In this document: in pieces, positions 48 through 55,559 of the stretch
Layout of the letters: each line of letters begins with the position of its first letter
Position numbering within the stretch: the stretch's first letter is position 1
NCBI GenBank assembly: GCA_030765065.1
Contig: CM060978.1
Coordinates: 218,817,498-218,881,497, forward strand
Direction of reading: 5' to 3'
Length of the DNA stretch: 64,000 nucleotides
Origin: Deroplatys truncata
Lineage: Eukaryota > Arthropoda > Insecta > Mantodea > Mantidae
The notes under the pieces: model-generated
What the model saw: the letters and a program-made list of their open reading frames with translations, nothing else
Databases searched by the model: none
What the model was told of the DNA's origin: nothing
Made by a program: the position numbers and the translations under genes

Positions 48-807
48 AGTAGAAATAATATGTATGTTTGAGCCCACATAGAGATGCCGACAAGCGATAA
101 AGTTCTTTGTTCTACGCTGACAAGCCCCGCCCCCTCCCTTTGAGGGCTCACATGCCGCCAGGTCTCGTGTCGTTAGGCCCCGCCCCCTCTCGCTTTGTGT
201 GCTCACAATGCCGACAGTGTCTGTGCTAACAGGTCCTACCCCCTCTCCCAATGCGTTCTACTGTGGCGTCCTGACTTGAGGGAATTGTTTTCTCGAGTCC
301 TGCCGCCCCCCGGCAAATTAATTAGGTAATGTTCGTCAAACATTTTTTTTATGATTACTAAGGTCTGCAGATTGCATCCTCGAGCAATTAAGTTTTTTGA
401 TTAATGAATTGTTGACTGGAGCGTGAGTATAAGTAGTCTGCTCACGGTAACAGTCTGTCATGTAATGAAACACTGCAGCCTTCTTCTTCTATCTGGGGAA
501 AGCGCTTGTCCATTAGCTGAACATGTTAGACGCTTTCACAACATTAATAGGCTTTTAAGTTTACATTCCGGATCTGTTTACATACATTAGCGATCAACGA
601 CATACTTCCGTCTGGAGGTAACGGTGACACACATTAGCTGACCCGTTAGACGCTTTCACTCCATTAGCGAACAAGAGCCCGGCATGTAATGAAAAAACCC
701 GTAACCTACTTCTGTCTGATGGTAACGGTGACCTCTATTAGCTGACATCTTTAGACGCTTTCACCTCATTAGCGAACAATGCCAGTAATTGTTTTCCTAA
801 GTGCTCT
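48..807 (+). repeat. Polinton left terminal inverted repeat
   Basis: 760 bp matching the reverse complement of 16326-17086. The outer ~250 bp are GC-rich with CCCCGCCCCCTC-type blocks; the inner part carries three degenerate subterminal repeats. By eye the two arms differ at about five single bases (near 65, 84, 117, 150, 263) and two indels (2 bp near 208, 1 bp near 250). No gene lies inside. The polymerase TATA box starts 37 bp inside the inner edge. Confidence 0.95.
485..780 (+). repeat. Degenerate subterminal repeats inside the TIR
   Basis: Three related blocks start near 485, 605 and 708. Each contains CTTC(T/C)(A/G)TCTG, then ATTAGCTGA, TTAGACGCTTTCAC and, in the last two, CATTAGCGAACAA. 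GTAACGGTGAC occurs in the last two. The right TIR has the same three in inverted order. Repeated subterminal words of this kind are often binding sites for a transposition or replication protein; that role is inferred here. Confidence 0.7.
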
Positions 808-843
808 ACAAACTCTCAACGCTTCAGCTTTAGCGGGGGAAAT

Positions 844-959
844 TATATAAAAGCAGTAGCTTCTCCAATGATTTTCACAGTATCGTAAGAACACTGCGAT
901 CTAAGCACTCTGCAAGCTTTATTCTTTCAACGTGGAAATTACATCGAACATCATGTCTG
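844..959 (+). promoter_or_regulatory. Polymerase gene core promoter and first exon
   Basis: TATATAAAAG starts at 844, the only strong TATA box between the TIR and the first coding exon. A TCACAGT initiator-like word lies about 30 bp downstream near 875-880. The first ATG after it is at 953; after ATG TCT G the exon ends at a consensus donor (GTAAGTTG at 960). Start site and exon end are inferred from these signals. Confidence 0.65.
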
Positions 960-3503
960 GTAAGTTGTATCACCAATTCATCTTCATTAAAAAGTTAACT
1001 TATTACTTAGTACATTTAACTTATATTTGCGTTCTTGTTTTTAATGACGGCCCTTTTATTTGTAAATAGCTGAGTATTCTAAAAGTTAATAGCTAGACAG
1101 TTGAATTTTTTCTGAAATGTGAACAGTTTAGTTAAGTATTCATTTTAGACAAGCTTATTCTACATTTAATAGCTAACTGCGCGAATTCTCAAAAAATGTG
1201 AATAATTTAGTTAAGTATTCGTCTTGTTGAGAAATTATTATTCCAGATATTTAAATACAGGGTTTCACAGAGTGAATTATATTCCTTTCTAGACAAAATA
1301 CAATTACTTGTTTACCCTACGATTCGAATAAAGAATGTTCTGTATAAATATTCTTCCGAGGGTAAGCGGCGGTATTCGATCCAGGGACTTCATGTTTGCA
1401 TGCATTGAGCGAACATTCATCAGTTAATGAGTTTAGTTAAGTTTTCATTTTAGGCAAGCTTATTCTACATTGAATAGCTAACTGCGCGAATTCTCAAAAA
1501 AATGTGAACAATTTAGTTAAGTATTCGTCTTGTTGAGTAATTATTATTCCAGGTATTTAAATACAGGATTTCACAGAGTGAATTATATTCCTTTCTAGAC
1601 AAAATACAATTACTTGTTTACCATACGATTCGAATAAAGAATGTTCTGTATAAATATTCTTCCGAGGGTAAGCGGCGGTATTCGATCCGGGGACTTCATG
1701 TTTGCATGCATTGATCGAACATTCATCAGTTAATGTTTCATTCCTCTAGTGCATTTTATTTAGTAAAAACATCCAGCCTGTTTCCATCACGTTAAAAAAG
1801 AGATATTTTCCATGAGTGTGTCGAATAATACAAATGCTTAATTTTGTCATAGAAATTTCTCAGGTGTTTAAAAATACATCGACATTTCCCTGTATAAGCA
1901 ATACGCAATAAAGTAAATTAACTTAATAATATAACTTTTCTTAAAAAAGTAAATAAATAAATAAATAAATAAAAATCTAACGTGTAAATTAATTACGTTT
2001 TCAGCATTCAGTTCTACTAACGTAGCTGAGGCATACATCCAGCTCCAGCAGGATCGTTCCTCAAATACAGCCATGATTCAGACACCAGAACAATCAAATG
2101 GTAAGCATTCTTCAGAGTTTAAAAAAATTAATGTAACAATTCATATTAACTTCTTGTTCATATTCTTTATTATTATATTATTATTATTTCCAGGATGCGG
2201 ACTTTATTTTGAGGTCTGTCATCCATCGATCGCTGCACAGGCACCTCCAGGCTTCCAAACCTTCCTGGTGCCAAATCATCATGGATGGGGCTCTGGCCCA
2301 TACATGCAGCAACACTCGAATGGTAAGAATTTACAGACCTGTGTTTGAGCAATTGTAACTAAAAATTATTTAATAGCAGGTATACAAGGGCGATTCTAGC
2401 ATACAAAGACCTACCTACGACAGCATAGAGTTCTGGATTGTATAAGCAGAAAAGGATATATTTAAGGAGAGTTTCTCACCACATATGCAGTCACATAACT
2501 CTACCGGTATCCTAGAATACCGTGTATTTTCACGCCTGTGTTCAAAACATCTATTTTTCACGTATAGCGTATAGATTCTTTAGAACTCTGTACTTAAACA
2601 TGCTATACTATTAATATTATTATTATTAATATTATTTATTTTTTCCAGGAAATGGACTTTATTTCGGGGGCGGCATCGCTCAACATGCAACCGCTGCACC
2701 GGCACCTCCAGGCCTCGCAACCATTGCACCTGCACCACAACGCTTCGCGACCGCTGCACCACCACCCCCAGGCTTCCAGACCTTCCTGGTACCAAATCAG
2801 CAGGGGTGGGGCTCTGCCCCTTACATGCAGCAAGCACCGAACGGTAAGAGTTTTTCAATATTTTATGAACTTCTTGCTTTACACATTCTATATTATTATT
2901 AATATTATCATTATTATTATTTTTTCAGGAAGTGGACTTTATTTTGGGATGAGTCAGCCATTGTCCGCTGCACAGGCACCGTCTGGCTTCCAAGCCTTCA
3001 TGGAGTCAAATCAGCAGGGTTGGGTCCCTGTCCCATACATGCAGCAACCACCGACAGGTAAGAACATGTTTCAAAATTTTATGAAGTTCTTTTACACATT
3101 TTATATTATTATTAATATTGTTATTATTATTTCCAGGAAGTGGTCTTTATTTCGGAGACGGGTTTGTTCCTCACGCACACTCTGCACCACAAGCTTTCCA
3201 TGCATCAAATCAGCAGGGGTGGGGTCCTGCCCCGTACATGCAACAACCACTGAATGGTAAGAACCCTTCAACATTTTATGAACTTCTTTTACACATTCTA
3301 TACTGTTATCATTATTATTATTAATATTATTATTTCCAGGAAGTGGACTTTATTTCGGGCGCGGTATCGCTCAACATGCGAGCGCTGTACCATCAGCCTT
3401 CCCTATACAAAATCAGCAGGGATGGGGGTCTGACATTAGTGTGCAGCAACAGTCGAATGGTAAGAATCCTTCAACATTTTACGAAGTTCTTTTACACATT
3501 GTA

Positions 3504-3547
<44 letters not shown>

Positions 3548-6500
3548 CAGGAAATGATCTGGGTGACGCTGGAAGCCAGCCTATGGACCTGGCAACACAG
3601 GGATCAGCATCGCCAGAGATTGGTGAAGACTCGACCACTGCACGGTCCGCCTCCTCATCGCTCGACACTCTGGAGGAAGTTATACAAGGTGAACCATCGA
3701 CCTCCTCAGTCGCAGGCAATGAAACCTCTGCACCATCGACCTCCTCAGACGCAAGCGATGAAGCCGCTGCACCGTCAACCTCCTCATCATCATCCAATGA
3801 TGTAGAACCAGTTAATAGAAAGAGAGGACCGACATCGGATGGGAGGGAACAGCCTACAATAAAAAAAGCCAAGGTTAGTGCTAGCAATTGCCAGGGTCTG
3901 GAGTGCAATACCATACAATCGGCATTCAAGGGACGTATTTTTAATAGTAGAATAGAAAATACATTAGAAATACTCGAGCCCAGAGTCTTTTTAGATGAGT
4001 GCAAGGAGCTTATTATTAAAGAAGTGGAAAACGTTTTGCAGAAAAGCAGGAGTGGATTAAAGATGCATTGTTCCATGGAACTTGAATATTTAATCCACAA
4101 ACCTGATGAAGAGAAGTGTCTTTCCACTGGCTTTAATTCTAAGCCTGTACTGATTCTTCCATCAAGCGACCTCAATCAGATCTTCTCTTCAATTGCGGGG
4201 GATATTTTGGAAAACATTTCTAAATTTGAGGGGGGAGCATCGTCAAAGTCCTTGTCAAAGATACTCAGCCTGGTGATGGGCTTTACACAGTACGATCCTT
4301 TACACGCAGGTTCATACATTGAACTACCTCAGAAAATTAGGCATAAGTATGCTGTTATAAACATAAAGAATGAAGACAACTTCTGCTTCGCATGGTGCAT
4401 GCTTGCTTCTAAATACCCTGTTAAACGTCATGGATATAGAACCACAGTATATCCCTTTGAACTGCTTTTCAAAGCATTCAATTATGAAGGTATCGAATTT
4501 CCGGTACCCTTACATCAAATTGAATGCTTTGAAAAGCAGAATAATGGAGTATCCATTTCACTGTTTGGTATAGAGGAGAATGACAACATTATTCCCCTAT
4601 ACCAAACACCTGAAAAGAAGCAGCACCATGTAAACATGCTATATATTGAAGAGGATGATAAGTCGCACTATTGCCTCATTAAAGACCTGTCCAGACTAGT
4701 AAGGAGCCAGACAACGAAGAACTGTCGAAGGATGTGGGTATGTGAGGCATGCCTCAAGAGATGCACCAATGAAAAGGCTCTGGAAGCACATAGGAAATGC
4801 CAACTGCTTAAAATGCCCCAACAGGATGAACACCTTGAATTTAAAGCATTCTCTAAAAGCGTTCCTGTTCCTTTTGTTATATACGCAGACATTGAATCTG
4901 TTCTGGCGAAGGTTCACTCTTGCGAGCCCTCAAGCAGCTCGAGTTGGACCCGAGCCATTCAAGAGCATGAAGCAATGTCTATTGCCTTAAAGGTGGTATG
5001 TAGGCATGACGAGGCCATGTCAAAATTCTCCCTCTTTAGAGGTCCGAATGCCGTCGATGACTTTATCAAGCAATTAAAATCAATTGCTGATGACGTCATC
5101 AATGTGTATTCCAATCCTAAACCCCTGGATTTAACCCTTGAAGAGCAACAGAATTTTGACAATGCCTCTGAGTGTCATATATGCCTTACTGCTTTCACTG
5201 TGAGCGATTTGCGTGTGAGGGATCACGATCATGTGACAGGGAAATATCTGGGTGCTGCTCATAATAGATGCAATTTGAATAGAAAGGTCCCTGATTTCAT
5301 ACCGATCTTTTTTCATTGTCTATCTAATTATGACAGCCACTTCTTGATAAGACGCCTGGCATATGATAATAAGCCCATATCGTGCATCGCTCAAAGTGGT
5401 GAAAGGTATATAGCGTTTAGCAAACGGTACAGGAACATCAGCTTCAGGTTTCTGGACAGCTTTAAGTTTCTTGACGATAAGCTGGCCAGTCTGGCTGACA
5501 TGCTGGAGGAAAGTGACTTTAAAATAACAAGGGCAGAATATCCTGTTGAGGAGCATTTTAAGCTGGCGAAGAGCAAGGGAATATTCCCGTATGATTATGT
5601 TTCAAGCCTAGACATACTCAAAGAAACTTCTCTACCACCGAAGGATGTCTTCTACAGCACTCTCACTGACAGTCACATCACAGACGAGGAATACAGGCAT
5701 GCTGAAAAAGTCTGGGATACCTTTAATATCCAGAATCTCGGAGAATACAGCGATCTATACCTGAAAACAGATATACTGCTCTTGGCGGATATTTTCGAAA
5801 AGTTTCGAGATCTCATCCTAGGGATGTATAAACTTGACCCAGCATGGTTTTATACATTACCAGGACTCGCCTTTGACGCTATGTTGAAGATAACTAAGGC
5901 GAAACTTTCCTTAATATCTGACAAGAGCATGCTGGAATTTTTCGAGTCGGGAATTAGAGGCGGACTGTGCACAGTGGTGAAGGGCTATACCAAAGCTAAC
6001 CACAGGTACATGTCCAACTTTGATCAGCATGCTCCTGTTAAACACCTGTCCTATTGGGACATAAATAACTTATATGGAGCTTCTATGGGGTCTGCCCTCC
6101 CGTACAAGAATCTGAAATGGCTCACCAGAGAAGAAATTGATAGTATAAACTTCGCTGAAATCAAAGAAGACTCGAAAACTGGTTATGTGCTAGAGGTTGA
6201 TATCGAATACCCCGACCATATCCACGACGCCCACAACGAGCTTCCTTTCTGCCCACAGAGTGCGATACCACCGAATGGCCAATACAAGAAACTGCTTGCG
6301 ACATTAGAACAGAAAAGCAAATATGTCTTGCACTACAGGGTGATGCAGCAGTGTATTGAACAAGGTCTAACTGTGAGACATATTCACAGAGTGGTATCCT
6401 ACGACCAGTCTAACTGGTTGAAAACATATATCGACGTGAACACAGAGAAAAGAATTCAGGAAAAGTCAAAATTTGGCCAAAACTTATGGAAAAAGATGAA

Positions 6501-7269
6501 TAACGCCGTATATGGGAAATTTATAGAAAATGTGAGGAAATACAGTGATTTCAAAATAGTTGGAAGCTGGAAACAGGCAAAGAAGTTGATAGCACGCAGC
6601 ACTTACCTACGCACCATAATTTTTGAGGAAAATCTTGTAGGAATCGAGCTGGGTAGAGAGGAAGTGCACATGAACAAGCCAATCTACATAGGACACGCAA
6701 TTTTGGACATTTCAAAATTTATCATGTACGACTTCTTTTACAATATCATGAAACCAAATTTAAAAGACTTGCTGCTGAATTACATGGATACAGACTCATT
6801 CATTTTTGAAACGAGTTCTGATATCTATGATTTCATCAGGGAGAACCCCCAATATTTCGATACTTCAAACTTCGAAAAGGATAATGCATATGGTATTAAG
6901 CAAGCCAATAGGAAAAAGATTGGGTTGTTCAAGGATGAATTGGGCGGCTTGGTTATGGAGGAGTATGTTGGTATAAGAGCAAAGTTATACGCCTACAGAT
7001 ACGGAGGGCAGACAATTAAGAAAGCTAAGGGCATCACCAAGGCAGGCATGGATAAAATCGATTTCGGCCATTATTTTGAATGTTTAAAAGACCATAGCCT
7101 AAAAATTTATTCGATACAAAAAACATTTCGGAGTAAACACCACAAAATTACAACAATTGAAACAAACAAATTGGCTTTGAAGGGGGGTGACGATAAGAGG
7201 AAGTTGATGGAAGGAAGCTATAAGACTGTAGCGTGGGGCCATTATTCCCTTAGACCCGGTGATTGCTAG
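953..7269 (+). CDS. POLB: Polinton protein-primed-type DNA polymerase B (8 coding exons)
   Basis: Replicative DNA polymerase of the element. Proposed coding exons: 953-959, 2005-2100, 2194-2322, 2649-2843, 2929-3057, 3137-3256, 3340-3459 and 3551-7269, all introns phase 1, giving about 1,504 residues. The last exon holds the catalytic part: a C2H2-like segment (WVCEACLKRC), ExoI YADIES (D codon at 4888), a Cys/His cluster CHICLTAF..RDHDHVTGKY, ExoII NYDSHF, palm motif A WDINNLYG, motif B KKMNNAVYGK and motif C YMDTDS (6781). All key residues are present with no stop. The ATG at 3343 gives a long open frame but reads repeat exon 3340-3459 out of its spliced frame and then runs through an intron; only sequence from 3551 on belongs to the polymerase. 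Splicing is inferred from consensus sites and unbroken phase. Confidence 0.9.
960..2004 (+). other. First intron of the polymerase gene
   Basis: Donor GTAAGT at 960, acceptor TTTTCAG ending 2004. Both joined exons are phase 1 and the frame stays open across the junction. At ~1,045 bp it is far longer than the other introns, mostly because of a 305-bp tandem duplication. Confidence 0.7.
1126..1735 (+). repeat. 305-bp tandem duplication in the first intron
   Basis: Copy 1 is 1126-1430, copy 2 is 1431-1735, beginning GTTTAGTTAAGT(A/T)TTCATTTT. They differ by scattered substitutions and a 1-bp indel. Each includes a CGGTATTCGATCC stretch loosely resembling a Pol III B box. Confidence 0.85.
2194..3459 (+). 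repeat. Array of five homologous symmetrical exons
   Basis: Exons 2194-2322 (129 nt), 2649-2843 (195), 2929-3057 (129), 3137-3256 (120) and 3340-3459 (120). Each follows a (TTA)n/pyrimidine acceptor, starts GA(A/T)GTGGACTTTATTT or close, and ends in a phase-1 G before GTAAG. All lengths are multiples of three, so any subset can be joined without changing frame. The peptide repeat has GLYFG at its start, an Ala/Pro-rich middle with PPGFQ, then NQQGWG and YMQQ before the junction Gly. The second unit has an internal duplication of the Ala/Pro section. No known domain recognised; it looks disordered. Introns are 79-93 nt except 2323-2648. Confidence 0.85.
2380..2506 (+). pseudogene. Probable decayed sixth repeat exon
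   Basis: Inside the one long intron of the array (326 nt versus 79-93). It follows TTTAATAGCAG, and its 3' end, ACATATGCAGTCACATAACT then CTACCGGTATC, resembles the conserved YMQQ..NG|GTAAG exon end. At 127 nt it is two short of the commonest exon length and the donor is no longer GTAAG. The middle is barely recognisable. Confidence 0.4.
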
Positions 7270-7382
7270 TGCCTAAACTTTTAAATAATGTATATATTGT
7301 GTAAAATAGATATCAAATGTGTGAGGGTTTTTTGTGTAACACTTTTCCCTCAAAAAAGAAAGAAAAATATGAATGCTTTTAA

Positions 7383-7429
7383 AATAAAAATACTCATGAT
7401 TTTACAATCATAAAACTTTAGTCTTTATT
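7383..7429. terminator. Convergent polyadenylation signals
   Basis: AATAAA (7383-7388) serves the rightward polymerase gene ending at 7269; TTTATT (7424-7429), read on the other strand, serves the leftward integrase cluster ending at 7443. Between them ATGATT-TTAC-AATCAT (7395-7410) can form a 6-bp hairpin. Confidence 0.6.
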
Positions 7430-7442
7430 AATTCTTCACATA

Positions 7443-8325
7443 TTACACCAAGTCCTTTATATCAATCCATTGAGTATCTGGAAAACCATACCACTTTACA
7501 AGAACTTTGTTTCCACGTTTACGTATAACCTTTTCTACTAAATATGTATTAGGATAGTTAGTCTTTTTTAGTTCATGTCCATAAAAGCCACCTTTTATGA
7601 TTTCACCATTCCTATCCTTTAGTATGTATGTTGTAGGCTTGGTACGGTTCACACGAAATACTTTGAAGATTTCAACGCTCCAGTTAGATTCATAACCCTT
7701 TTCAAAATGTCCTTTATGTTTAGATATCCTGACATAATCACCAACACTAAACTTCCTTGAAGCCATCTTCTCTCTTCGTTCTTGATTATAATTATACACA
7801 GTCAGAAGAAGATCGTTGTTTTTCACTTCATTAGGTTTCATGCGGATAGTTGAATGAAAAGTATCATTGTACTTTACAAGGATTCTAGGTAAAAGATCTA
7901 GCCACTTGTATGAGCCTTGGACTAAAAACTCTCGGTACATCATATTCTTCAAGGTTCGAATTAAACGTTCAACAGCCGCAGCCTTCACATTGGTATAGGT
8001 GCTGTAGTTTGTTATAAAATTCTTTCCCGTTGTCACTTTGAATATTCCGGGGAGGGACATCCATTTCTTGTAATATATCATCCATTGCCTTTGCAACATT
8101 AACTCCGCTCTTATCCTTTAAGGGTTTTGCATATGCCATTTTAGAGTAAAAGTTGATTGCGATCAGAATGTATTTGAAATTTTTGTTCACTCTTGCATAT
8201 GGTATCATTTCAATCAAATCAATTTGTAATAAATCGTTCATACCTTTGCTGATACTTTTGCGTCGTAAATAGTTCCTCCTTGCCGAACCGTGAAGCTCTC
8301 TGGCGATATTCTGTTTGGCTGTCAT
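7443..8325 (-). pseudogene. INT: Polinton integrase (DDE, chromodomain), frameshifted
   Basis: Retroviral-type integrase that would insert the element and make the 6-bp duplication. The first frame (8325 to ~8015) has the catalytic Asp in LLQIDLIEM and the second in IQSDNGKEF. The other frame (~8015 to 7443) has the catalytic Glu in AAAVERLIRTLK, an SH3-like GDYVRISKHKG region and a C-terminal chromodomain-like YLVEKVIRKRGNKVLVKWYG. The change of frame sits just after the second Asp, where the family usually has about ten more residues before the Ser-Thr-Tyr stretch, so a small deletion not divisible by three is the likely lesion. The ATG at 8325 overlaps the preceding gene's stop as ATGA. 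Confidence 0.9.
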
Positions 8326-9134
8326 GCTATAACTTTAGATGCTTTCAACTCCCTGATAATTTCCTCAATCTCTTGAGTGTGACTATTATTACCAGCACCC
8401 CTCGATGCAATTAGTAACCTCAGCCTATTCACTAATGTGTTAGGGTTTCTCCAGAAAACGTAGTCAACCTCCTTATCAGACTTATGCTCCTTCCATGTCA
8501 GTCCTAGACCTGAATGTGTATTGAGCAAGGGGCGTATTATATTCTTGTATTTATACGATTTACCAGATTTCAAACGACCGTGTCTGGTGTAACCAGATCT
8601 ATGAAGAAAAGTACTTTTCATAATCTTAGCGTACGTCTCCAAGTCTTCACTGGTGTATGCAGAAATCTGAGGCGTTCGCTTAAAGATGAGCTCCGTCAAC
8701 CCGTCTGTAGACTCATACGTTTCATCACCTATCAATATTTGATTATTTATAAAATGAATATCTTTATTTCCAAGCATATAACTTCCATCCTGATATCTCA
8801 CCCCGTACAATGTATCAATGCGGTCCTTGTCTTTTGAGCGAACGTGTTGAAGGAAAGTAGAAATACTTGTAGAATCATCATCTTCATTCTTGACTGTCTC
8901 CACAGCCAACCCTCGTTGACTGTCCAAAATATCCTTGAGGGGAGCGGTTACAGGCTTCAAAGCTTCGGACATGATATGCTGAGTCTCAAACCTGAGACCT
9001 TTTAGAGCTCTCAGTTTTTCTTTTACAGCCCTGGTATGCTCGGCTACAGACTCTTTAAGTCTTATGCTTTCACTATCCATCTTACAAATGACGTGAAAAT
9101 AGACGATTACATTCAATTTATAGTCTGCGTCCAC
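8322..9134 (-). CDS. Conserved Polinton hypothetical protein
   Basis: Up to 270 residues with no catalytic motif I can name. The N-terminus is charged and helical; the central part has YGVRYQDGSYMLGNKDI, then a Tyr-rich segment with DGLTELIFKRTP and a basic stretch near GRLKSGKSYKYK. The pattern resembles a hypothetical protein found beside the ATPase and integrase in other Polintons and adintoviruses. The first ATG (9134) lies within the upstream gene; the second (9080, MDSES) avoids that overlap and may be the real start. The stop overlaps the integrase start as ATGA. Confidence 0.75.
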   Translation of the reverse strand: MDADYKLNVIVYFHVICKMDSESIRLKESVAEHTRAVKEKLRALKGLRFETQHIMSEALKPVTAPLKDILDSQRGLAVETVKNEDDDSTSISTFLQHVRSKDKDRIDTLYGVRYQDGSYMLGNKDIHFINNQILIGDETYESTDGLTELIFKRTPQISAYTSEDLETYAKIMKSTFLHRSGYTRHGRLKSGKSYKYKNIIRPLLNTHSGLGLTWKEHKSDKEVDYVFWRNPNTLVNRLRLLIASRGAGNNSHTQEIEEIIRELKASKVIA

Positions 9135-10221
9135 CTTGAGTTCTCATCGTATCGATAGCCTTAGCTAACATCTCTATCGAAGTTCTCAGTTGCTCGGTTT
9201 CTTTCTTATGTTCCTGCGTATGTGACTTGAACGCTTCAGCAAAGATTGCCGTATTAGCGTACAGGCTTCTGGTTGATTCTTCTAGACTTGTCATTTGCTG
9301 CACATTAGTTTTGTAAGCGTCCATCATCATATTTACATTTTCCTCCACTTTCTTAAGTTTATCATTGCATGAATCAGTTTTGAGAGTATTCAAAACCTCT
9401 GTCTTTAACTGTCCGACTGTAGCCTCTAAATCTGAAACTCGCTTCATCGCTAACTTTTCTAAATTGCTAATTTTCTGATTGCAAAGATTCTGAAGATTTG
9501 TTTTTTCTCTATCAAGCTCTGCGGTAACTTGTTTAATGGAGTCCATTACAGAATCCACTCTGTCTTTTGTAGAGGTTGTTAGAGTATCCACTTTACTCGT
9601 AGCTTTATTCAGATTTGCTGTGATGTCTAGCAGCTTTTCACCTATTTGCATCTCGATTTCCTTTGGTAAGTACCTATTTAACTGCTGTCGCGTCTCGTTC
9701 GATTTCCTAATGATCATAGCTCTAGCATATCTTTTATTTACAGCATCTGTATCTCCGAGAGGATCTGCTATATCAGTGATTCTCTTGTTGTCGAATATAA
9801 TGTTACCATTACTATCTCTCGTCTGCGTGCGTGAATTGACATATCCAGTGATGAACTTTTTATTCACAACATCGTTATCGTGAACAGGATCTAGCAATAC
9901 CTTCAATCTAACTTTATCAATCACAATGTTATTTTCCTTATCTCTCTTGAGGATATATCTTGAAATCAATTCATCGAACAGGGTCTTGGCCATAACCTCA
10001 ACATTGTTAGCAGCTTGCTGAGAGAAATCTTGCATTCTAATTTCGAGAGCATCCACATAATTCTTATTGGAAGCATCATGATTATCTTCAGGATCGTGAA
10101 CGTTACACAATCTCTTATTCTTGAATTGATAATTTCCTTTGACGTCTCTATTTATGATAAAACGATCAAACACTCTTCTAACTGGACCAGTTCTCTGAGA
10201 ACCGAACCTATCGATGCTCAT
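9118..10221 (-). CDS. Fibre-like protein: DAVNK repeats plus long coiled coil
   Basis: 367 residues. Three repeats of the tail-fibre type lie at residues ~34-56, 102-123 and 144-165, with cores HDPEDNHDASNKNY, LDPVHDNDVVNKKF and ADPLGDTDAVNKRY, each after a short (D/N)K.R(L/I) strand. From ~180 to 360 the protein is polar, heptad-like and nearly free of Pro, as in a long coiled coil. In phage tail fibres this repeat marks short trimeric segments between strands; a fibre or attachment role here is inference from that pattern and from its place in the virion gene set. The ATG at 10221 is 6 nt after the ATPase stop. Confidence 0.75.
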   Translation of the reverse strand: MSIDRFGSQRTGPVRRVFDRFIINRDVKGNYQFKNKRLCNVHDPEDNHDASNKNYVDALEIRMQDFSQQAANNVEVMAKTLFDELISRYILKRDKENNIVIDKVRLKVLLDPVHDNDVVNKKFITGYVNSRTQTRDSNGNIIFDNKRITDIADPLGDTDAVNKRYARAMIIRKSNETRQQLNRYLPKEIEMQIGEKLLDITANLNKATSKVDTLTTSTKDRVDSVMDSIKQVTAELDREKTNLQNLCNQKISNLEKLAMKRVSDLEATVGQLKTEVLNTLKTDSCNDKLKKVEENVNMMMDAYKTNVQQMTSLEESTRSLYANTAIFAEAFKSHTQEHKKETEQLRTSIEMLAKAIDTMRTQGGRRL

Positions 10222-10227
10222 GGTTAA

Positions 10228-10944
10228 CTATGAATGATCATTTTCTTTTTTGTCGAGCTTAATATATACATCAAAACCATTCCTATATCGTCCCTCATTC
10301 ATGTGAAATTCAGGAACTAACACAACAAAGGGTCTTCCTTCTGTAGAGCTCTCCCAAACGTTCTTACATAGATCTTTAAATTCGTTGTAGGTCATGTCGG
10401 TATTTACATAATCTTCGTAAATGTGCTTTAAGTTTAAATTGTCTTGCCTGAAGAGTATTATCATGTTTGTATTATCGCGAATTAAATGTTTTGGAACTTT
10501 AGCATAGGACTGCGCTAGATATACAGAGTCGACATTTCGATGTCTACCCATACTGTAAAAGGATGCTATCTTTTCCTGCTTTTCAGTGATGACGTCATCA
10601 AATATAAAGATTGAATTTTCTTCGACTTCAGAAGGATGCAAAACATCATCACCGTTGTCGAAGGTGTTCACTTCTATACCTTCGATGTTTCCAAGCACTT
10701 TAATTAGATATTGGTACTTTGGTTGATAGAGAGACTTTGAATAAATATATAAATTTTTAAAACGTAGTCCATTCTCATGGAGTAGCATATTGAGTAATAC
10801 GTTTGTTTTCCCTGCACTGGAGCTCCCTAAAATAAGAGCTCTGACATTAGATGGAAATAACTTGCCATGACGATCACTTCTAAAGTCACTTTCAAAGTCT
10901 AATACCTGAATAGGTAGAGAGCAGTGCTGCTTAACAAGCTCCAT
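10228..10944 (-). CDS. ATP: A32/FtsK-like genome-packaging ATPase
   Basis: 238 residues, intact. Walker A is GSSSAGKT (residues 40-47) and Walker B SIFIFDD (111-117), followed by RHRNVDSVYLAQSY in the sensor position. This is the fold and size of packaging ATPases of Polintons, adintoviruses and the poxvirus A32 group, which would pump genome into the capsid. It is the first gene of the leftward block, with a TATA-like stretch about 40 bp upstream on the minus strand. Confidence 0.93.
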   Translation of the reverse strand: MELVKQHCSLPIQVLDFESDFRSDRHGKLFPSNVRALILGSSSAGKTNVLLNMLLHENGLRFKNLYIYSKSLYQPKYQYLIKVLGNIEGIEVNTFDNGDDVLHPSEVEENSIFIFDDVITEKQEKIASFYSMGRHRNVDSVYLAQSYAKVPKHLIRDNTNMIILFRQDNLNLKHIYEDYVNTDMTYNEFKDLCKNVWESSTEGRPFVVLVPEFHMNEGRYRNGFDVYIKLDKKENDHS

Positions 10945-10978
10945 GTTAACAACTAACTTATAACATGTATGTGCATTG

Positions 10979-11068
10979 TTTATATATATTACCGTTTGTA
11001 AAAGTAGTTAATGATTGACTGCAATGATATAAAAGGGTTAATGCATTCAATTACTCGTTTAGTCTATC
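10979..11068. promoter_or_regulatory. Divergent promoter between ATPase and virion gene blocks
   Basis: On the plus strand TATAAAAGGG begins at 11028, with TTTAGTC about 31 bp on and the first ATG at 11069. On the minus strand an ATATATATAAAC stretch at about 10989-10979 lies ~35-40 bp before the ATPase ATG. Two short divergent promoters in ~120 bp would drive both multi-gene blocks. Confidence 0.6.
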
Positions 11069-11794
11069 ATGAGAGCTAAGAGAGGGAGGTCGTTGCAGTA
11101 AAAGCGCGGCTCTGGAATTATTAATTCTATAATTAATTCGCTCCCCTTTGAAGCTCACTTACCTGGATATAGATATTGCGGGCCTGGTACTAAATTGGAA
11201 AAACGTCTAAAAAGAGGAGACCCCGGAATTAACCAATTAGACACAGCTTGCAAACAGCACGACCTCGCGTACGCTGAGAATAAGGACACCGCTTCAAGAC
11301 AAATAGCGGATAAGATTCTTGCAGAGAAGGCTTGGAAACGTGTGCAGTCATCAGATTCAACTTTTGGTGAAAGGTTAGCTGCAAGGCTAGTAACTGCAAT
11401 CATGAAGGGAAAGGTTGCAGTGGGAGCCGGAAAGAGGAAGAAGAGAGGAGGGTTTTTACCATTGATTCCCATCATTGCTGCTTTAGGCGCTGCAGCAGGT
11501 GGCGCTGCTCAGATAGCCTCTGCAGTCAATAAAAAAAAGGCTGCTGATAGACACTTGGCAGAAGTTGCGAGGCATAACAAGGCGATGGAGACCCGAGGAA
11601 AGGGGCTCAGGAAGGGTAGGTGTAAGAAGAGGAATAAAGGAGGTTTCTTACCTGCAATGCCGCTGATGTCGTCTTTAGCCGCTGCATCTAAAATAGCAAG
11701 GTCTTTGAAAAAAAGAGGATCTAAAGGCGAGGGTTTAAAGAAGAAGGCAAAAAACGGAGGAAGAGGATTGTACATATACCGGAGGAAGCCCTAA
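11069..11794 (+). pseudogene. PLA2-domain / pX-like virion protein with an early stop
   Basis: From the ATG at 11069 the frame meets TAA at 11099-11101 and then stays open in the same frame to 11794. The open part has the phospholipase A2 signature as in parvovirus VP1: the calcium loop YCGPGT and the catalytic ACKQHDLAY. It then has two Gly/Leu/Pro hydrophobic blocks set in Lys/Arg-rich sequence, GGFLPLIPIIAALGAAAGG and GGFLPAMPLMSSL, resembling adenovirus pX (mu). Family members start with a short basic Gly-rich leader, which fits the 11069 ATG, so the TAA is probably a nonsense mutation. No downstream ATG precedes the PLA2 core. Its end overlaps the protease frame. Confidence 0.8.
11749..11755 (+). 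promoter_or_regulatory. Candidate -1 ribosomal frameshift site A_AAA_AAC
   Basis: The heptamer is in the correct phase for the PLA2/pX frame (gcA AAA AAC). A -1 slip here enters the protease frame, which is open from 11725 but has no ATG until 11857. I see no strong downstream hairpin or pseudoknot by eye, so this rests on heptamer phase and gene layout. Confidence 0.4.
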
Positions 11795-12123
11795 GTAACG
11801 TAGCCCTCGAATATTACGCTAAACGTTTAAAAATTCCTTATTTTAGAGGGGTTTATATGATTGACAAACTTCCTTTAAAACCGCACTGCAAAGAGAGACT
11901 TATTACCAATCTCGATACATCGGATAATGAAGGAACACACTGGGTTGCTATAAGGAAAGAAGGTGATGTCGCATACTACTTTGATAGTTTCGGTAATTTG
12001 AAGCCGCCTCCTGAGATTGAGAAATATCTACAAGGCGTTAAAATCTACTATAATACACAGAGATACCAGAATTTCGATTCAGTCATCTGCGGACACTTGT
12101 GCTTGCAATTTCTTTTATCCTAG
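11770..12123 (+). CDS. PRO: Adenain-like cysteine protease
   Basis: Maturation protease of the adenovirus/Polinton type, expected to cleave virion precursors. The triad is visible: His in EGTHWVAIR (codon 11938), Asp in YYFDSFG (11983) and Cys in ICGHLCLQF (12088), with a Gln/Asn-rich YYNTQRYQN stretch before the Cys. The domain clearly begins upstream of the only in-frame ATG (11857): the usual N-terminal helix (EEALSNVALEYYAKRL) is encoded from ~11782. The frame is open back to 11725 without ATG, so translation needs a frameshift from the overlapping pX frame, splicing or a non-AUG start. Ends 19 nt before the minor capsid ATG. Confidence 0.85.
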   Translation, partial: VHIPEEALSNVALEYYAKRLKIPYFRGVYMIDKLPLKPHCKERLITNLDTSDNEGTHWVAIRKEGDVAYYFDSFGNLKPPPEIEKYLQGVKIYYNTQRYQNFDSVICGHLCLQFLLS

Positions 12124-12142
12124 AAGCTGCTTCATCGTCAAG

Positions 12143-12853
12143 ATGAGTTATACAGTTACAGTGAGTGGGTCAGACACTGTTATTTCAACGTATCTAAACC
12201 CTCCTCTACAGCTAGATCCTCCAGGTCATTATGAGATTGCTCTCTTGAATTTTGAGACATTCTATTCAATACCAAATGTCGATGGAAGTAATAATAGATT
12301 TCATTATATTCATAATGGTAAACCTGAAGCCATTGTCATCCCTCATGGAACCTATGAGATTGCCGATATCAATACATTTCTAAAGGATAAACTAGAATTG
12401 AATGATGAAGTCTTCTTCATAAGGCCTAACAATAATACAATGAAGGCTGAAATTAAATGTCCTTATACAATAGACTTTTCTAAGGAAAGATCTATTGGTT
12501 CGCTTCTAGGATTCACAGACACTAAAATAATTCCTGCTGGAGAAGCGATCGAATCTGACGATCTTGTGAATATATTTAAAGTGAGTATCATACGTGTGGA
12601 GTGCAGTATTGCAACAGGCTCTTTCATTGACGGTAAAAGCGGACATTCGCTCTACGAGTTTTTCCCTTCTGTTCCGCCAGGCTATCATATCTCTCAAGAA
12701 CCTTCGAACCCAATATATTTACCGGTCATAGATACAAACTATATAGACCAGATCACTATTCGAGTGGTAGATCAACACGGGAAGGCTATCAACTTCAGGA
12801 ACGAAGTTATCACTACAGGACTCCACATAAGACGTAATGGCAATACATTTTAA
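12143..12853 (+). CDS. Minor capsid (penton-type) protein
   Basis: 236 residues from the ATG at 12143 (MSYTVTVSGSDTV), intact. The family-typical run is present: YEIALLNFETFYSIPNV near the N-terminus, then IPHGTYEIADINTFLKDKL, matching the minor capsid/penton single jelly-roll of Polintons and adintoviruses. Position between protease and major capsid gene is the usual one. An ATG at 12017 in the same frame lies inside the protease gene and lacks family character. Function is inferred from family resemblance. Confidence 0.8.
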   Translation: MSYTVTVSGSDTVISTYLNPPLQLDPPGHYEIALLNFETFYSIPNVDGSNNRFHYIHNGKPEAIVIPHGTYEIADINTFLKDKLELNDEVFFIRPNNNTMKAEIKCPYTIDFSKERSIGSLLGFTDTKIIPAGEAIESDDLVNIFKVSIIRVECSIATGSFIDGKSGHSLYEFFPSVPPGYHISQEPSNPIYLPVIDTNYIDQITIRVVDQHGKAINFRNEVITTGLHIRRNGNTF

Positions 12854-12980
12854 AAGTCACCTCAAATACTATAATAGACGACGTACACAGCGATCGAAGC
12901 ATATTACCTCTCCAACTTCCGAGGAGTTAACACGTGCTAACCGCAAGTTCCTCGAAGAGTTAGGTTACAGGACGCTATAA
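12837..12980 (+). CDS. Small basic protein between the capsid genes
   Basis: 47 residues: MAIHFKSHLKYYNRRRTQRS, then SKHITSPTSEELTRANRKFL and a short tail ending in Leu. It overlaps the last 17 nt of the minor capsid gene, and its stop overlaps the major capsid ATG as TAATG. Basic N-terminal half, acidic/polar helix after. The two tight overlaps and absence of other coding sense here argue that it is real. Function unknown; a DNA- or capsid-cementing role is only a guess. Confidence 0.55.
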   Translation: MAIHFKSHLKYYNRRRTQRSKHITSPTSEELTRANRKFLEELGYRTL

Positions 12981-14190
12981 TGGACATCTTAAACGTGACA
13001 GAAGTTCCAGCCTTTGACGACAAGATCACCAAGGAGGAGGAGCATATTTTTCTTCCATACAACACCTCCGCTCTGGATGTAAACGATGAAATTAGAATAC
13101 CATGCCAAGCTGAAGATTTGTATACGCTACCTAACAAGAGTTATCTCTACATCGAAGGTGCTCTCACCAAGGTAGATGGATCGCCTACTACAGCGAAGCT
13201 CGCTAATAATGCTATAGCCTTCATGTTTGATGAGATACGTCTAGATATGAATGCTACAACTATAGACAGAACAAGGAATCCTGGAATTACTACAACTATA
13301 CGAAATTATGTGACTCTCAACCCTATGGAATCGAATCGTCTGCTGAATGCTGGATGGGCCTATCCTGGTGAAGAAGTTGATATAGTACACGCTACGAATG
13401 GAGCTTTCAATGCTGTAGTCCCTCTCTCGATGCTCCTAGGATTTGCTGATGACCACAAGGAACTTATACTCAACAGTAAGTTTGAATTGATTTCATAAGA
13501 TCCAAAGATTCTAGAAACTGTGTCCTGAGTTCGAATGGAGAGGAAGCTAATGTAAAGTTAACTAGAATCGAATGGAGGATGCCTGTAATTCGCCTTTCCG
13601 ATGCTGAAAGAGTTCACATTCTAAAAATTGTCAAGTCTGATAAACCTCTACACCTTGCCTTTCGATCTATGGATCTTCATACCCAGCCTGCTGTACCCCA
13701 GACAAGATCTTTCACGTGGAATGTAGCAACAACATCTAAGCTCGAGAAACCTCGCTTCATCATAGTGTGTGCTCAGACTGCAAGATTGGGTGATTATAGC
13801 AAGAACAGTTCCGAGTTTGATCACTGTAACATTACTAATATGAGACTATTCCTCAACAGTGAATGCTACCCCTACCATGATTTGAACTTGGACTTTAAAA
13901 ATTCAAAGTTTGCTTCACTATATGAAATGTACTGTAAATTTCAAAGTTCCTATTATGAAAGAGAGAATTATCCTCTCTTGAAGAGAAAGGATTTTCTTCA
14001 CCGTGCACCATTATTCGTAATAGACTGTTCTCACCAACCCGAGGAGGTTATAAATGGAGCTGTGAACATCAGAATCGAGATTCAAGCATCTGTAAATATA
14101 CCAGCCCAGACGTCACTGTACTGTCTGATTCTACACGACAAAGTATTTACCTACAAACCTCTTTCTCACGTGATGCAAGCACTTATATAA
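12980..14190 (+). pseudogene. MCP: Major capsid protein (double jelly-roll type), frameshifted
   Basis: About 400 residues in two frames. The first (12980-13498) has FMFDEIRLDMNATTIDRTRN, NYVTLNPMESNRLLNAGW and VPLSMLLGF, as in Polinton major capsid proteins. The second, open from near 13490 to 14190, carries the C-terminal half (EWRMPVIRLSDAERVHIL, RSFTWNVATTS, LYEMYCKFQSSYYERENYP). Frames swap near 13490 as expected from loss of one base; family similarity continues across, so an intron is unlikely (the only GT..AG option would be ~39 nt). This copy would yield a truncated capsid protein unless the reference has an error. Confidence 0.85.
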
Positions 14191-14252
14191 TTATGCATAC
14201 GTTTGGATGAATGGTTTTTGTAAAGGAATGTACAAGGATACGTTTTATGAAT

Positions 14253-14258
14253 AATAAA
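14253..14258 (+). terminator. Polyadenylation signal of the virion gene block
   Basis: AATAAA 63 bp after the major capsid stop, between it and the convergent gene ending at 14272. Confidence 0.55.
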
Positions 14259-14271
14259 TTGAATTCATATA

Positions 14272-14754
14272 CTAAAACACTCTTTTATTGACTTTAGCAT
14301 ACATTTCAAGCATTTTCCTTCTTCCCCTCCTACTCCCTGAAAAACTAATTGCTCCTGACTTGCAAAAATCATTTAAAATATTCAAATGTCTTTCAATATA
14401 GGGCGATAGCCGTTTTAGGTTCCTTACACCCTCAATGCCTAAAGATATTACATTATTATTTAAACACGTATTTATGAAATGAATTGAACTGTCAAAAAAT
14501 ACAATAATATTGTATGCATAAATTACATTGTCACAATATTCATCACACGCAAACTTTTTTTCTTGGCTTAGGTAATCTTCAATCATTGAAATGTTTTTGG
14601 ATATTATATCCCAGTCTGATTTTGTAATATAAACAATTGATTTATCACTTTCACAATTTATGTAGAGGGATGGAATGTCATAGTATAGTCCAATGTTCAC
14701 GGAATGGGAGGGGGAGATGCTGACGTCATCAAACGCCTGTGATTGATTCTCCAT
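14272..14754 (-). CDS. Unrecognised 160-residue protein
   Basis: ATG at 14754, in a frame different from the last exon of the Cys-rich gene and overlapping its end by 26 nt. The sequence is ordered-looking: YYDIPSLYINCESDKSIVYI, TKSDWDIISKNISMIEDYL, YNIIVFFDSSIHFINTCLNN, and a basic tail GSRRGRRKMLEMYAKV. The strand-turn-strand then Trp-containing helix faintly recalls PC4-like single-strand DNA binding domains, but I do not claim that. It may be the 3' cistron of the leftward transcript, or use another splice form. Confidence 0.5.
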   Translation of the reverse strand: MENQSQAFDDVSISPSHSVNIGLYYDIPSLYINCESDKSIVYITKSDWDIISKNISMIEDYLSQEKKFACDEYCDNVIYAYNIIVFFDSSIHFINTCLNNNVISLGIEGVRNLKRLSPYIERHLNILNDFCKSGAISFSGSRRGRRKMLEMYAKVNKRVF

Positions 14755-15645
14755 GCTCCTCCGGGGTATCTTCAATGAATAAGAAGACCCTAGGACCCTC
14801 GTTGAGTATCCTCCTCTTACAACTCCTCTTCTGCTTTCTCTTCCCAGTCTCGTTCTGCCTCTTCCTCCGCTCCCTCCTCGCACCCCTGCAACATATATTC
14901 AAAACAATGTTAGAAATAGGTTTAGTTAATGATTTCATGCCTTCTGAAAGAGAAAATACAAATATTAGAAAAATCCTCTCCCATTGCCACACAAAAAAAG
15001 TACTATCAAAGCGTGTCATACTCACTTCAAGGGTTTGCGCGTTTCTGCGTGTATCTCGGGCGAGCAATCTGGAATCGTCTGATTTATCCCATCCTGTAGC
15101 ATCGTTGCTTTATCATCATCAGAGGTAGTAGTAATGGCTGGTAGTGGAGCGCCATCCTCATCCATAGGCTGTGTATGGCGCTCTGCGATTGGATATTCCA
15201 CTATATCGACAATACGTCTCTCAGGATCCAGCTCCTCTATTGGCACGGGTACCTTAGGCTCAGTCATTCGCAGTCTGTAATAATTTAATTTTAGGTTAGA
15301 CATAGAGTAGCATTAGAAGCAGTAAATGAAAATGTAATTTAACGTTTCTTCTACTTACTCGAGTTTTCTCCTCCTGCGTTGGTAGACGTCGCAGTTGTCG
15401 TTACATAGGAAGAATGATGTCATGCGTTCATGCTGGGCCGGGTTAGTACAAAGTATAGAATGCATGTATCCCGTGCACGACTCTGTATCACATTCTGTTA
15501 GATGTTTCGAGACGAGGACATCGTCAACTTCCTCGACATCGCTAAGGTCGTCCACATCATCACCCATGCGATTTTCACTGAAAGAATAAAATAATTTCAA
15601 GTTAGTTTTCATTTAACATACGTACAATATATTACCGAGTTATAG

Positions 15646-15685
<40 letters not shown>

Positions 15686-15893
15686 CTTACATGTTCGCTC
15701 CTCGATAAACAGGACAGCTCTCTGTACACACTTCCAGTGTAGTCATCTGATCATGATGCGATGGTTGAGTACACAACACTGAATGCATTAAACCATTGCA
15801 TGTTTCGGTATGGAAGTATACGTAGTGAAAATAATCTTCTCCGCACTCGCTCCAGTAATCATTCATCTCAGATGCACGATTATCACCAGCCAT
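14729..15893 (-). CDS. Spliced Cys-rich protein with duplicated exon
   Basis: Four exons on the minus strand: 15893-15691, 15577-15359, 15274-15026 and 14885-14729. All three introns are phase 2 with GTAAGT or GTGAGT donors and CAG acceptors; total about 275 residues. Exons 1 and 2 each encode a TE(T/S)C.G.MHS(V/I)LCT module followed by H..MT....C...C.VY, so exon 2 (219 nt) looks like a copy of exon 1. Exon 3 is acidic/Pro-rich. Exon 4 is strongly basic (RRERRKRQNETGKRKQKR), nuclear-localisation-like. The Cys/His pattern suggests metal binding; no known family recognised. The start (MAGDN) is chosen over the ATG at 15905 because it follows the promoter-like region more naturally. Confidence 0.65.
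15645..15682. repeat. (TA)n microsatellite in an intron
   Basis: About 18 TA units inside the first intron of the Cys-rich gene (15690-15578), close to its donor. Confidence 0.9.
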
Positions 15894-15903
15894 TTCGATT
15901 ATC

Positions 15904-15955
15904 ACTGAACGAACAATAAATTGATCGCTCTGGCTGCCGACGTTCCTTATATACT
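15904..15955 (-). promoter_or_regulatory. Promoter of the leftward Cys-rich gene
   Basis: On the minus strand TATATAAGG lies at about 15954-15946 and TTCAGTG, an arthropod-type initiator, at 15909-15903, with the ATG at 15893. The TATA-initiator spacing (~48 bp) is longer than usual, so the true start may lie between them. Confidence 0.45.
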
Positions 15956-16325
15956 GATGACTGTGACGTCACGCGGCTGTGGAGGGGGATGAATGCATGT
16001 TGAGACCTGTTATTCGTCTCCAGGCAGAGCCCAGCTGTCTATTTTTTGAATACAATCACCTTTTTTAATAACATTTATAATATTTAACTATAATGTTATC
16101 CGTATTTATTTTACTTTTAATAACATATGTAGTATTCACCAATCAATGAGACGCTTCTGAATTATGAATACTTTATTCGCAATATTTTATTGAAAGAAAT
16201 AAGAACTATGAAACTTAATCATTAATTATCAGGGAAAAAATTGTCTAGACTTGGGTTTTTCCACGGTTTGTGATGGAAATTCTACGAGCTAAAAGGTATT
16301 TACATTGAGTGTCTGGGGGTTTTTC
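15956..16325. other. Gene-free stretch before the right TIR
   Basis: AT-rich, no open frame of note, no repeat recognised. It separates the Cys-rich gene promoter from the inner edge of the right TIR. Confidence 0.6.
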
Positions 16326-17086
16326 AGAGCACTTAGGAAAACAATTACTGGCATTGTTCGCTAATGAGGTGAAAGCGTCTAAAGATGTCAGCTAATAGAG
16401 GTCACCGTTACCATCAGACAGAAGTAGGTTACGGGTTTTTTCATTACATGCCGGGCTCTTGTTCGCTAATGGAGTGAAAGCGTCTAACGGGTCAGCTAAT
16501 GTGTGTCACCGTTACCTCCAGACGGAAGTATGTCGTTGATCGCTAATGTATGTAAACAGATCCGGAATGTAAACTTAAAAGCCTATTAATGTTGTGAAAG
16601 CGTCTAACATGTTCAGCTAATGGACAAGCGCTTTCCCCAGATAGAAGAAGAAGGCTGCAGTGTTTCATTACATGACAGACTGTTACCGTGAGCAGACTAC
16701 TTATACTCACGCTCCAGTCAACAATTCATTAATCAAAAAACTTAATTGCTCGAGGATGCAATCTGCAGACCTTAGTAATCATAAAAAAAATGTTTGACGA
16801 ACATTACCTAATTAATTTGCCGGGGGGCGGCAGGACTCGAGAAAACAATTCCCTCAAGTCAGGACGCCCCAGTAGAACGCATGGGAGAGGGGGTAGGACC
16901 TGTTAGCACAGACACTGTCGGCATTAGGTGAGCACACAAAGCGAGAGGGGGCGGGGCCTAACGACACGAGACCTGGCGGCATGTAAGCCCTCAAAGGGAG
17001 GGGGCGGGGCTTGTCGGCGTAGAACAAAGAACTTTATGGCTTGTCGGCATCTCTCTGTGGGCTCAAACATACATATTATTTCTACT
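16326..17086 (-). repeat. Polinton right terminal inverted repeat
   Basis: 761 bp, inverted partner of 48-807. Ends TTATTTCTACT against the target duplication GACAGG. Carries mirror copies of the three subterminal repeats. Confidence 0.95.
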
Positions 17087-17092
17087 GACAGG
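17087..17092. repeat. Polinton target-site duplication, right
   Basis: GACAGG directly after the right TIR, matching 42-47. The uninterrupted host site would read TGACAGGAAATAGCGG. Confidence 0.95.
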
Positions 17093-49369: not shown

Positions 49370-50320
49370 GAATACCTGTGACACTATCTGAATTACCTGT
49401 TAAAATGACTTAAATATCTGTCATACCACCCAAATCATGCGAAATTATCCTAAATAGCCTTATAACGAATCGCTACGCTGAATTGCCATGAACATCAGCG
49501 ATACTACTCTGTCTTAAATACCTCCCTACGATAGTGTCTTAATTACCATTGAAATCATACGGTGCTATGCTACGCCCCCTCCTGAAATTAGTCTGCCTAT
49601 GAGACTAAATGAATTACATTTTAAAATGAGTCGAATAACTTTGATACAATCTGAATCACCTGCAATTACATTAAATAGTTGTGATACAAATCGCTGATCG
49701 AAATTATCACGGGTATCTGTGAAACTATGCTGATTCCCTAAATACCTGCTAAATTACCTGTGAAATACGAAACTATGCTATGTCCAACCACTGGAATCAA
49801 TCCTCCTGTGATACTAGCTGAATTAGCCTAAATATCTACGATACTGGATGAATTACCTGTGAAATCATACACAGCTATGATCCGCACCCTCCCTGGAATC
49901 TAGTACTAGCTGAATTAGTCTAAGCACCTATGATACTTGAATTATCCTAAATATCTATGATAATATCTGAATTACCTGTGAAATCATACGGAACTATGCT
50001 ATACCCGCTTCCCGGAATCTGTCCCACCCTGTGATACTACCTGAATAACCCTAAACACCTATGATACTACCTGAATTATCTGTGAAATCAAACGGAGCTA
50101 TACACACCTAAACCATGGAATCTTTCCTCCTGTGATACTACCTGAATAACCCTAAACATCTATGTAACTACCTGAATTATCTGTGAAATCATACGGAGCT
50201 ATACACACCTAAACCATGGAATCTTTCCTCCTGTGATACTATCTGAATTACCCTAGAAACCTATGATACTACCTGAATTATCTGTGAAATTATGTACAAC
50301 TATGCTACACCTAAACTGCG
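49370..50320. repeat. Degenerate ~100-bp minisatellite
   Basis: Units carry CTACCTGAATTA(C/T)CTGTGAAATC, then ATACGGAGCTATAC and CCTGTGATACTA. The spacing between the last two clear units is ~101 bp. Left units are more diverged than right. Confidence 0.75.
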
Positions 50321-50389
50321 AAATATGCTTGCCTGCTAAATGTTGGACGGTGCTCTCCTGGAGAAGCTTGAATATTATACGTCCATCAA

Positions 50390-54998: not shown

Positions 54999-55559
54999 AT
55001 CCACGTCGTTTTGGTGTTTTGTAGTTGAATTCCCCCGTTGCCTTTTAATCTCGGAATTACGATGTCCAATCATCCGCGTAGTCTGTCATTCCTATAGTTG
55101 TTTCTGGAATCTGCGTCTTGTAGTTCAATTTACTGCTCCATTCGCTCCACGTCCTGATTCCTTTGCTCCTTCCTGGTTATTTCACTCCTTTCCTGGTCAC
55201 TCTGCCCCACGTTCTGGGTGCCAATTTGAAGTAACGTTTATTTGTATATGTTTGTTTTTGTAGCCCCACGTTGGGCGCCAATTTGAGAGTGTTTTGTAGT
55301 TGAATTACCCCGTTGCCTTTTAATCTCGGAATTACGATGTCCAATCATCCGCGTAGTCTGTCGTTCCTATAGTTGTTTCTGGAATCTGCGTCTTGTAGTT
55401 CAGTTTACTGCTCCATTCGCTCCACGTCCTGATTCCTTCTCGCTTTCCTGGTTATTTCACTCCTTTCCTGGTCACTCTGCCCCACGTTCTGGGCGCCAAT
55501 TTGAAGTAACGTTTATTTGTATATGTTTGTATTTCTTAGCCCCACGTTGGGCGCCAATT
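54999..55559 (-). repeat. Tandemly duplicated leader with two primer-binding sites
   Basis: About 275 bp, 54999-55283 and 55284-55559, each ending on the plus strand with GCCCCACGTTGGGCGCCA (55263-55280 and 55539-55556). On the minus strand this is TGGCGCCCAACGTGGGGC, a tRNA-type primer-binding site. A third weaker copy (CCCCACGTTCTGGGTGCCAA) lies near 55203. Confidence 0.8.

Follow-up and report, generated by a model that had tools for sequence, protein, structure and literature searches.

The protein-primed DNA polymerases of Polinton/Maverick elements carry N-terminal terminal-protein and vOTU domains (PMC11071308), and vOTU cleavage between the terminal protein and the polymerase has been proposed in print. 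Intact vertebrate Mavericks are furthermore reported to be without introns (PMC8097293), and in the Oxyrrhis marina polinton-like virus a helicase is fused ahead of the polymerase (PMC12721341). No exon array in a Polinton is described in the titles and opening abstract lines of the literature searched. The stretch of the mantid Deroplatys truncata analysed here (64,000 nucleotides of contig CM060978.1, hereafter the window) contains at positions 48-17086 a Polinton of 17.0 kb, whose polymerase resembles the described ones in having a predicted phi29-near fold, a predicted little-finger-like fold at the place of the terminal protein and, in a vOTU-like region, the invariant Cys and His. Unlike the polymerase described in PMC11071308, however, it is preceded in the window element by an intron-separated array of repeats. 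As the best overall explanation of the locus we consider it probable that this array is a spliced, recombining N-terminal extension of the polymerase, giving the predicted layout array, terminal-protein domain, vOTU protease, exonuclease and palm.

The initial annotation had proposed that five homologous exons splice in frame onto the polymerase exon, and all seven junctions that it named (959/2005, 2100/2194, 2322/2649, 2843/2929, 3057/3137, 3256/3340 and 3459/3551) are indeed found with GT-AG introns between them. All exons lie on the plus strand. Exon 1, with the coding part ATG TCT G (953-959) followed by the donor GTAAGT, would be joined to exon 2 (2005-2100, 96 nt), and this to the repeat exons 3 (2194-2322, 129 nt), 4 (2649-2843, 195 nt, with inner sub-repeats), 5 (2929-3057, 129 nt), 6 (3137-3256, 120 nt) and 7 (3340-3459, 120 nt) and to the polymerase exon 8 (3551-7269). 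Exons 2-7 are each open, a multiple of three in length and in phase 1, and the array exons hold phase with the polymerase exon, while introns 1-7 measure 1045, 93, 326, 85, 79, 83 and 91 nt. Upstream on the same strand are found the promoter-like motifs TATATAAAAG (844-853), which we take to be a TATA box, and TCACAGT (875-881), presumably an initiator-like site; they stand just inside the terminal repeat, about 110 and 80 nt upstream of where exon 1 ends, and TATATAAAAG is kept in all 32 copies of the element in which exon 1 was located. The genomic frame is not the same for all of the homologous exons, so that only splicing can make them a single coding sequence. According to Tandem Repeats Finder, 2793-3537 consists of 3.6 copies of a 203-nt unit, and the repeated unit there is thus exon plus intron, as had been claimed. 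The repeat motif GLYFG..NQQGWG..YMQQ holds in general, GLYFG being found in four of the five repeat exons of the window, but exon 3 has GLYFE and NHHGWG, exon 5 has NQQGWV and exon 7 lacks YMQQ. Similarly, the TTTCCAG supposed to end each intron is found in four of the six introns before exons 3-8, the other two ending in TTTTCAG and TATTCCAG.

Intron 2 of the window copy is open and a multiple of three in length (open reading frame 1965-2348); its retention as coding sequence was considered and rejected, since it is 80 nt long in 19 of 32 other copies, namely those in which exon 2 has 117 nt. Intron 1 contains a 306-nt tandem duplication, 96% matching, at 1125-1735, and in one copy of the array type B described below (L013) it is about 300 nt shorter than in the window.

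Copies of the element were sought in the entire 4.29-Gb assembly (818 contigs), where a 346-residue fragment of the polymerase gave scored matches at no fewer than 117 places. Of these, 116 are free of inner stops, and the identities are 97-100% among those listed, which points to a large recent spread of this Polinton. Arrays were read in 33 copies, comprising the window, 20 from the top of the polymerase match list and 12 from further down, and the set is accordingly a sample leaning toward the closest copies. Comparing exon number among copies of one genome, as had been suggested, reveals four or five repeat exons of differing type in five structural types and one further mosaic. Type A (12 copies) has an exon 2 of 96 nt and repeat exons of 129, 195, 129, 120 and 120 nt; three of its copies are broken (L029, L033 and L034), and a fourth one counted here (L036) is the further mosaic with a B-like exon 5. 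Type B (15 copies with nearly identical arrays, one of them, L027, frameshifted) has an exon 2 of 117 nt and repeat exons of 129, 189, 189 and 129 nt, and type C (two copies) differs from this in a last exon of 120 nt. Type D (two copies) combines the 117-nt exon 2 and a B-like exon 3 with A-like exons of 195, 129, 120 and 120 nt, and type E (two copies) is as A except for an exon 4 of 189 nt with a B-like front. In 29 of the 33 copies (16 with four repeats, 13 with five) every exon from exon 2 to the last repeat is open and a multiple of three in length, and in total 143 of 147 repeat exons have such lengths, as opposed to introns, of which 160 of 179 do not. In a tree of the distinct repeat exons these group mainly by array position, while the last exon of B copies joins exon 5 and the second of their long exons joins exon 4 of A.

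The pattern of substitution shows the repeat exons to be under purifying selection. Between haplotypes the nonsynonymous divergence (dN) is 0.112 and the synonymous divergence (dS) 0.304 over 221 codons of exons 2-6, pooled from comparisons of the window with L013 (exons 2-4) and with L036 (exons 5 and 6); dN/dS is 0.37 (Fisher p 1.7e-5). Gaps between the haplotypes are multiples of three in both of the two exon cases and in only 4 of 24 intron cases. Among the five repeat exons of the window, the pooled proportions of synonymous and nonsynonymous differences (pS and pN) are 0.49 and 0.27, and 58 of 59 distinct repeat-exon peptides retain the YF motif. It might be argued that the repeats are non-coding tandem DNA that merely resembles exons, tandem repeats being common, but the dN/dS, the exon gaps in threes, the frames open in most copies and the fact that homologous segments are framed by splice sites while lying in different genomic frames make this very improbable, and an origin of the pattern in chance or simple tandem DNA was rejected on the first three of these grounds. 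Divergence between haplotypes is lower in introns (about 0.12) than at synonymous sites (0.30). Within the array, the first 55 nt of the introns that follow exons 4-7 are 87-91% identical, against a pS of 0.36-0.61 in most pairs of the exons that they separate. Gene conversion of introns, mutational effects of base composition and a bias in the way differences are counted may each play a part.

How the array types differ from one another points to recombination. Comparing the type B copy L013 to the window, the terminal repeat is 94-100% identical, the region from 813 to about 3410 has roughly 80-90% identity in most comparison windows and 55-74% where exon content differs, and from about 3410 into the polymerase the two are again 99-100% identical. 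Within the block the introns of the two haplotypes diverge by 11-12% and promoter plus exon 1 by about 16%, whereas further downstream (8462-13459) two B copies are 99.4 and 99.0% and one A copy 98.4% identical to the window. A diverged block between flanks of about 99% identity shows that promoter and array have been exchanged between copies as a unit. A fast-evolving array as the sole cause of this pattern was rejected, since introns and promoter of the block have diverged too, the flanks are about 99% identical and crossovers can be placed. Indeed, the last exon of type B has the sequence of the B-type L036 exon 5 as far as the shared NQQG codons and that of window exon 7 beyond them (corresponding site 3410-3421), which makes it the product of unequal crossing-over, with the intervening units lost and the frame intact. 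In L038 and L039 a switch from B to A falls in intron 3 at window positions 2513-2519 (p 3e-33 and 8e-34, each for the best of all possible single break points and uncorrected for that choice), and L040 and L041 have a B-like patch running from the last part of intron 3 into the front of exon 4. Furthermore, L031 and L032 are B-like through the array, and the first 300 nt of the linker that follows show an identity to the window of only 85%, as against 98% for the polymerase fragment, which implies another exchange point further on. The proposal that repeat number and exon type vary by recombination without breaking the frame is thus borne out by crossovers in a repeat exon and in an intron, and we regard the gene structure together with its recombination, as read from these alignments, as quite likely.

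This does not by itself say that the variation is put to use. It could be a neutral by-product, in which near-identical tandem introns recombine and in-frame products are tolerated in a spacer, block exchange being uninformative on use; the crossovers do fall in shared repeat sequence and in an intron, the array region is low in complexity, and more than 100 near-identical copies provide many recombination partners. On the other hand, the exons are under purifying selection, and their residue make-up is kept along with the YF motif. We consider the matter to be evenly balanced, and since the neutral account concerns the cause of the variation and not the anatomy, it can be compatible with a spliced N-terminal array.

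The polymerase exon holds an open frame of 1238 codons from 3553. The protein has 722 relatives at E<=0.001, and the best 120 of these, the named ones among which are mostly from insects, have 35-43% identity. Pfam alone gives no DNA polymerase match to the window protein, but a predicted structure of 1185 residues (predicted local distance difference test score, pLDDT, 81.8) has phi29 DNA polymerase as its top PDB match (E 3.3e-19), and among viral models adintovirus PolB ranks third, which identifies it, on the predicted fold, as a protein-primed family B DNA polymerase. An acidic, Ser/Thr-rich linker includes the stretch RKR...KKAK (3817-3873), which we take to be a nuclear-localisation-like motif. 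It is followed by a predicted Y-family little-finger fold (3901-4302) that matches the published terminal-protein domain of Polinton polymerases, and, as modelled, the array lies ahead of this terminal-protein-like fold. A vOTU-like region (4321-4716), assigned from PMC11071308, contains a Cys codon at 4384-4386 and a His codon at 4666-4668 that are invariant in all 33 aligned proteins. OTU chains are absent from the fold list, but this list is filled by the other domain and is, according to the note of the tool, no evidence against a vOTU; a profile search of solved structures returned zinc-finger chains only.

The array might alternatively encode a small protein of its own, or a leader spliced on only some of the time, with the polymerase normally starting at its own ATG in exon 8. 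Such an in-frame ATG exists ten residues into the exon and well ahead of the conserved domains, and both the relatives and two loci on viral contigs have polymerase frames without an array. However, the phases of exons 7 and 8 match, all 33 copies retain the acceptor at 3551 with the reading TATTCCAG, and unspliced readthrough past exon 7 would meet a stop just after the acceptor. In addition, nine of the ten residues before the ATG are identical in the divergent type C copy L031, and an independent start is therefore held to be improbable.

Besides this ATG, several observations weigh against a spliced N-terminal array. The exons of the other copies were located by patterns requiring AG before and GT[AG]A[GA] after them, and conservation of donors and acceptors there is therefore partly by construction. 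A genome search for spliced retrocopies using a gapped pattern for one junction type found no match, and for the terminal-protein part Foldseek found none at E<=0.001, the best being 2.2e-3. Finally, a dN/dS near 1 had been named beforehand as speaking against a coding array, and although the ratio is 0.37 overall, exons 3 and 5 give 1.19, as the one of ten within-array pairs above 1.

If the array is indeed spliced as proposed, a TATA-bearing promoter just inside the terminal repeat would give rise to a transcript in which the tiny exon 1 is followed by exon 2, by four or five symmetric phase-1 exons and, in frame, by the polymerase exon, and recombination within the repeats and their introns would lose and swap repeat exons, the frame surviving because the units are multiples of three and in phase 1. 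The repeat exons encode 209-231 residues; in the four types counted, 1-3% of these are charged and 13-14% aromatic, and this charge-depleted low-complexity sequence with spaced FG motifs resembles FG domains of the cohesive kind. The product would accordingly be a disordered, almost uncharged tail of some 210-230 residues with Tyr-Phe-Gly and Gln/Gly/Trp stickers on the terminal protein. If vOTU cleavage falls, as the literature proposes, between the terminal protein and the polymerase, the primer on the 5' ends of the DNA would retain the tail, and we somewhat favor the notion that the tail does remain with the terminal protein. There it could tether ends to one another, collect them in a replication body or interact with nuclear pores, but each of these functions taken singly is unlikely, and the roles named in the initial annotation are speculative.

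The assignment of the host element to the Polintons is supported by its termini and gene content as well as by the polymerase fold. The left terminal inverted repeat (48-813, plus strand) pairs with the right one (16321-17086, minus strand) over about 765 nt with about nine differences, and the 6-bp target-site duplication GACAGG is read directly beside the repeat ends (42-47 and 17087-17092). A Pfam scan gave matches above the cut-off to a retrovirus-like integrase (rve, E 9.9e-9) and, at 10231-11007, to the FtsK-like packaging ATPase Pox_A32 (E 1.6e-7), along with a double jelly-roll (DJR-like) capsid domain in two adjacent frames (E 8.3e-30 and 5.5e-73). As regards a minor capsid protein and a cysteine protease, the frame at 12002-12850 has no Pfam match, and no protease match was found among the ten frames scanned. 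In the window copy the capsid protein (12941-14190) and the integrase (7443-8334) are each split across two overlapping frames, and this copy may thus be broken in both or be read out in an unusual manner. The frame at 11102-11794 matches a phospholipase A2-like domain and adenovirus protein X. Outside the element, the flank has tandem arrays at 49934-51699 and 55014-55571, whose unit lengths are about 101, 70 and 275 nt. Elsewhere in the assembly, COX1-like stretches occur at 99 places over the chromosomes, nearly all with inner stops in the standard code, mostly TGA, and look like numerous nuclear copies of mitochondrial DNA.

Relatives of the polymerase differ at their N-termini, several of the best 120 of 722 having C2H2-like fingers and 1 of 19 scanned a Rho_N domain. 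The repeat motif pattern was found in none of these 120 apart from one GWG, and the five exon peptides have no Pfam match at E<=1. A profile of the array exons, which sees only proteins of similar length, matched none at E<=10 among 180 candidates. On viral contigs a single-protein search returned no array relative, and an alignment search returned two distant loci whose ATG-started polymerase frames are repeat-free in their first 300-330 residues. All searches among relatives are limited by the fact that many catalogued ones look like unspliced frames.

N-terminal additions to such polymerases are already known, and what is new here is the intron-separated, variable repeat array. Like the polinton-like virus of Oxyrrhis marina, the element has an extra part fused ahead of its polymerase, but there the addition is one folded helicase domain, whereas the window element has low-complexity exons in a row that varies. 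With the FG domains of Nup98-type nucleoporins (PMC9579204) the array shares depletion of charge, richness in Gly, Ala, Pro, Gln, Ser and Asn and spaced Phe-Gly motifs; unlike in those proteins its units are about 40-65 residues long and correspond to single exons, and the likeness is no more than a resemblance. A mobile element can, on this evidence, vary one end of its replication protein while the reading frame is kept open, and its many recent copies preserve natural recombinants in which loss and exchange within an exon array are directly readable; this raises the question of what role a low-complexity tail plays on the protein with which a linear DNA genome is primed and capped. More tentatively, and by analogy, array and promoter may form a variable cassette in the manner of phage fibre tips or surface antigens, the introns serving as recombination pads and the symmetric exons as exchangeable units, with the tail, covalently on the genome ends together with the terminal protein, setting end cohesion, the site of replication or the view that host factors have of the element. 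Doubtful as this comparison is, new array types would then rise with bursts of the element, as type B may have done.
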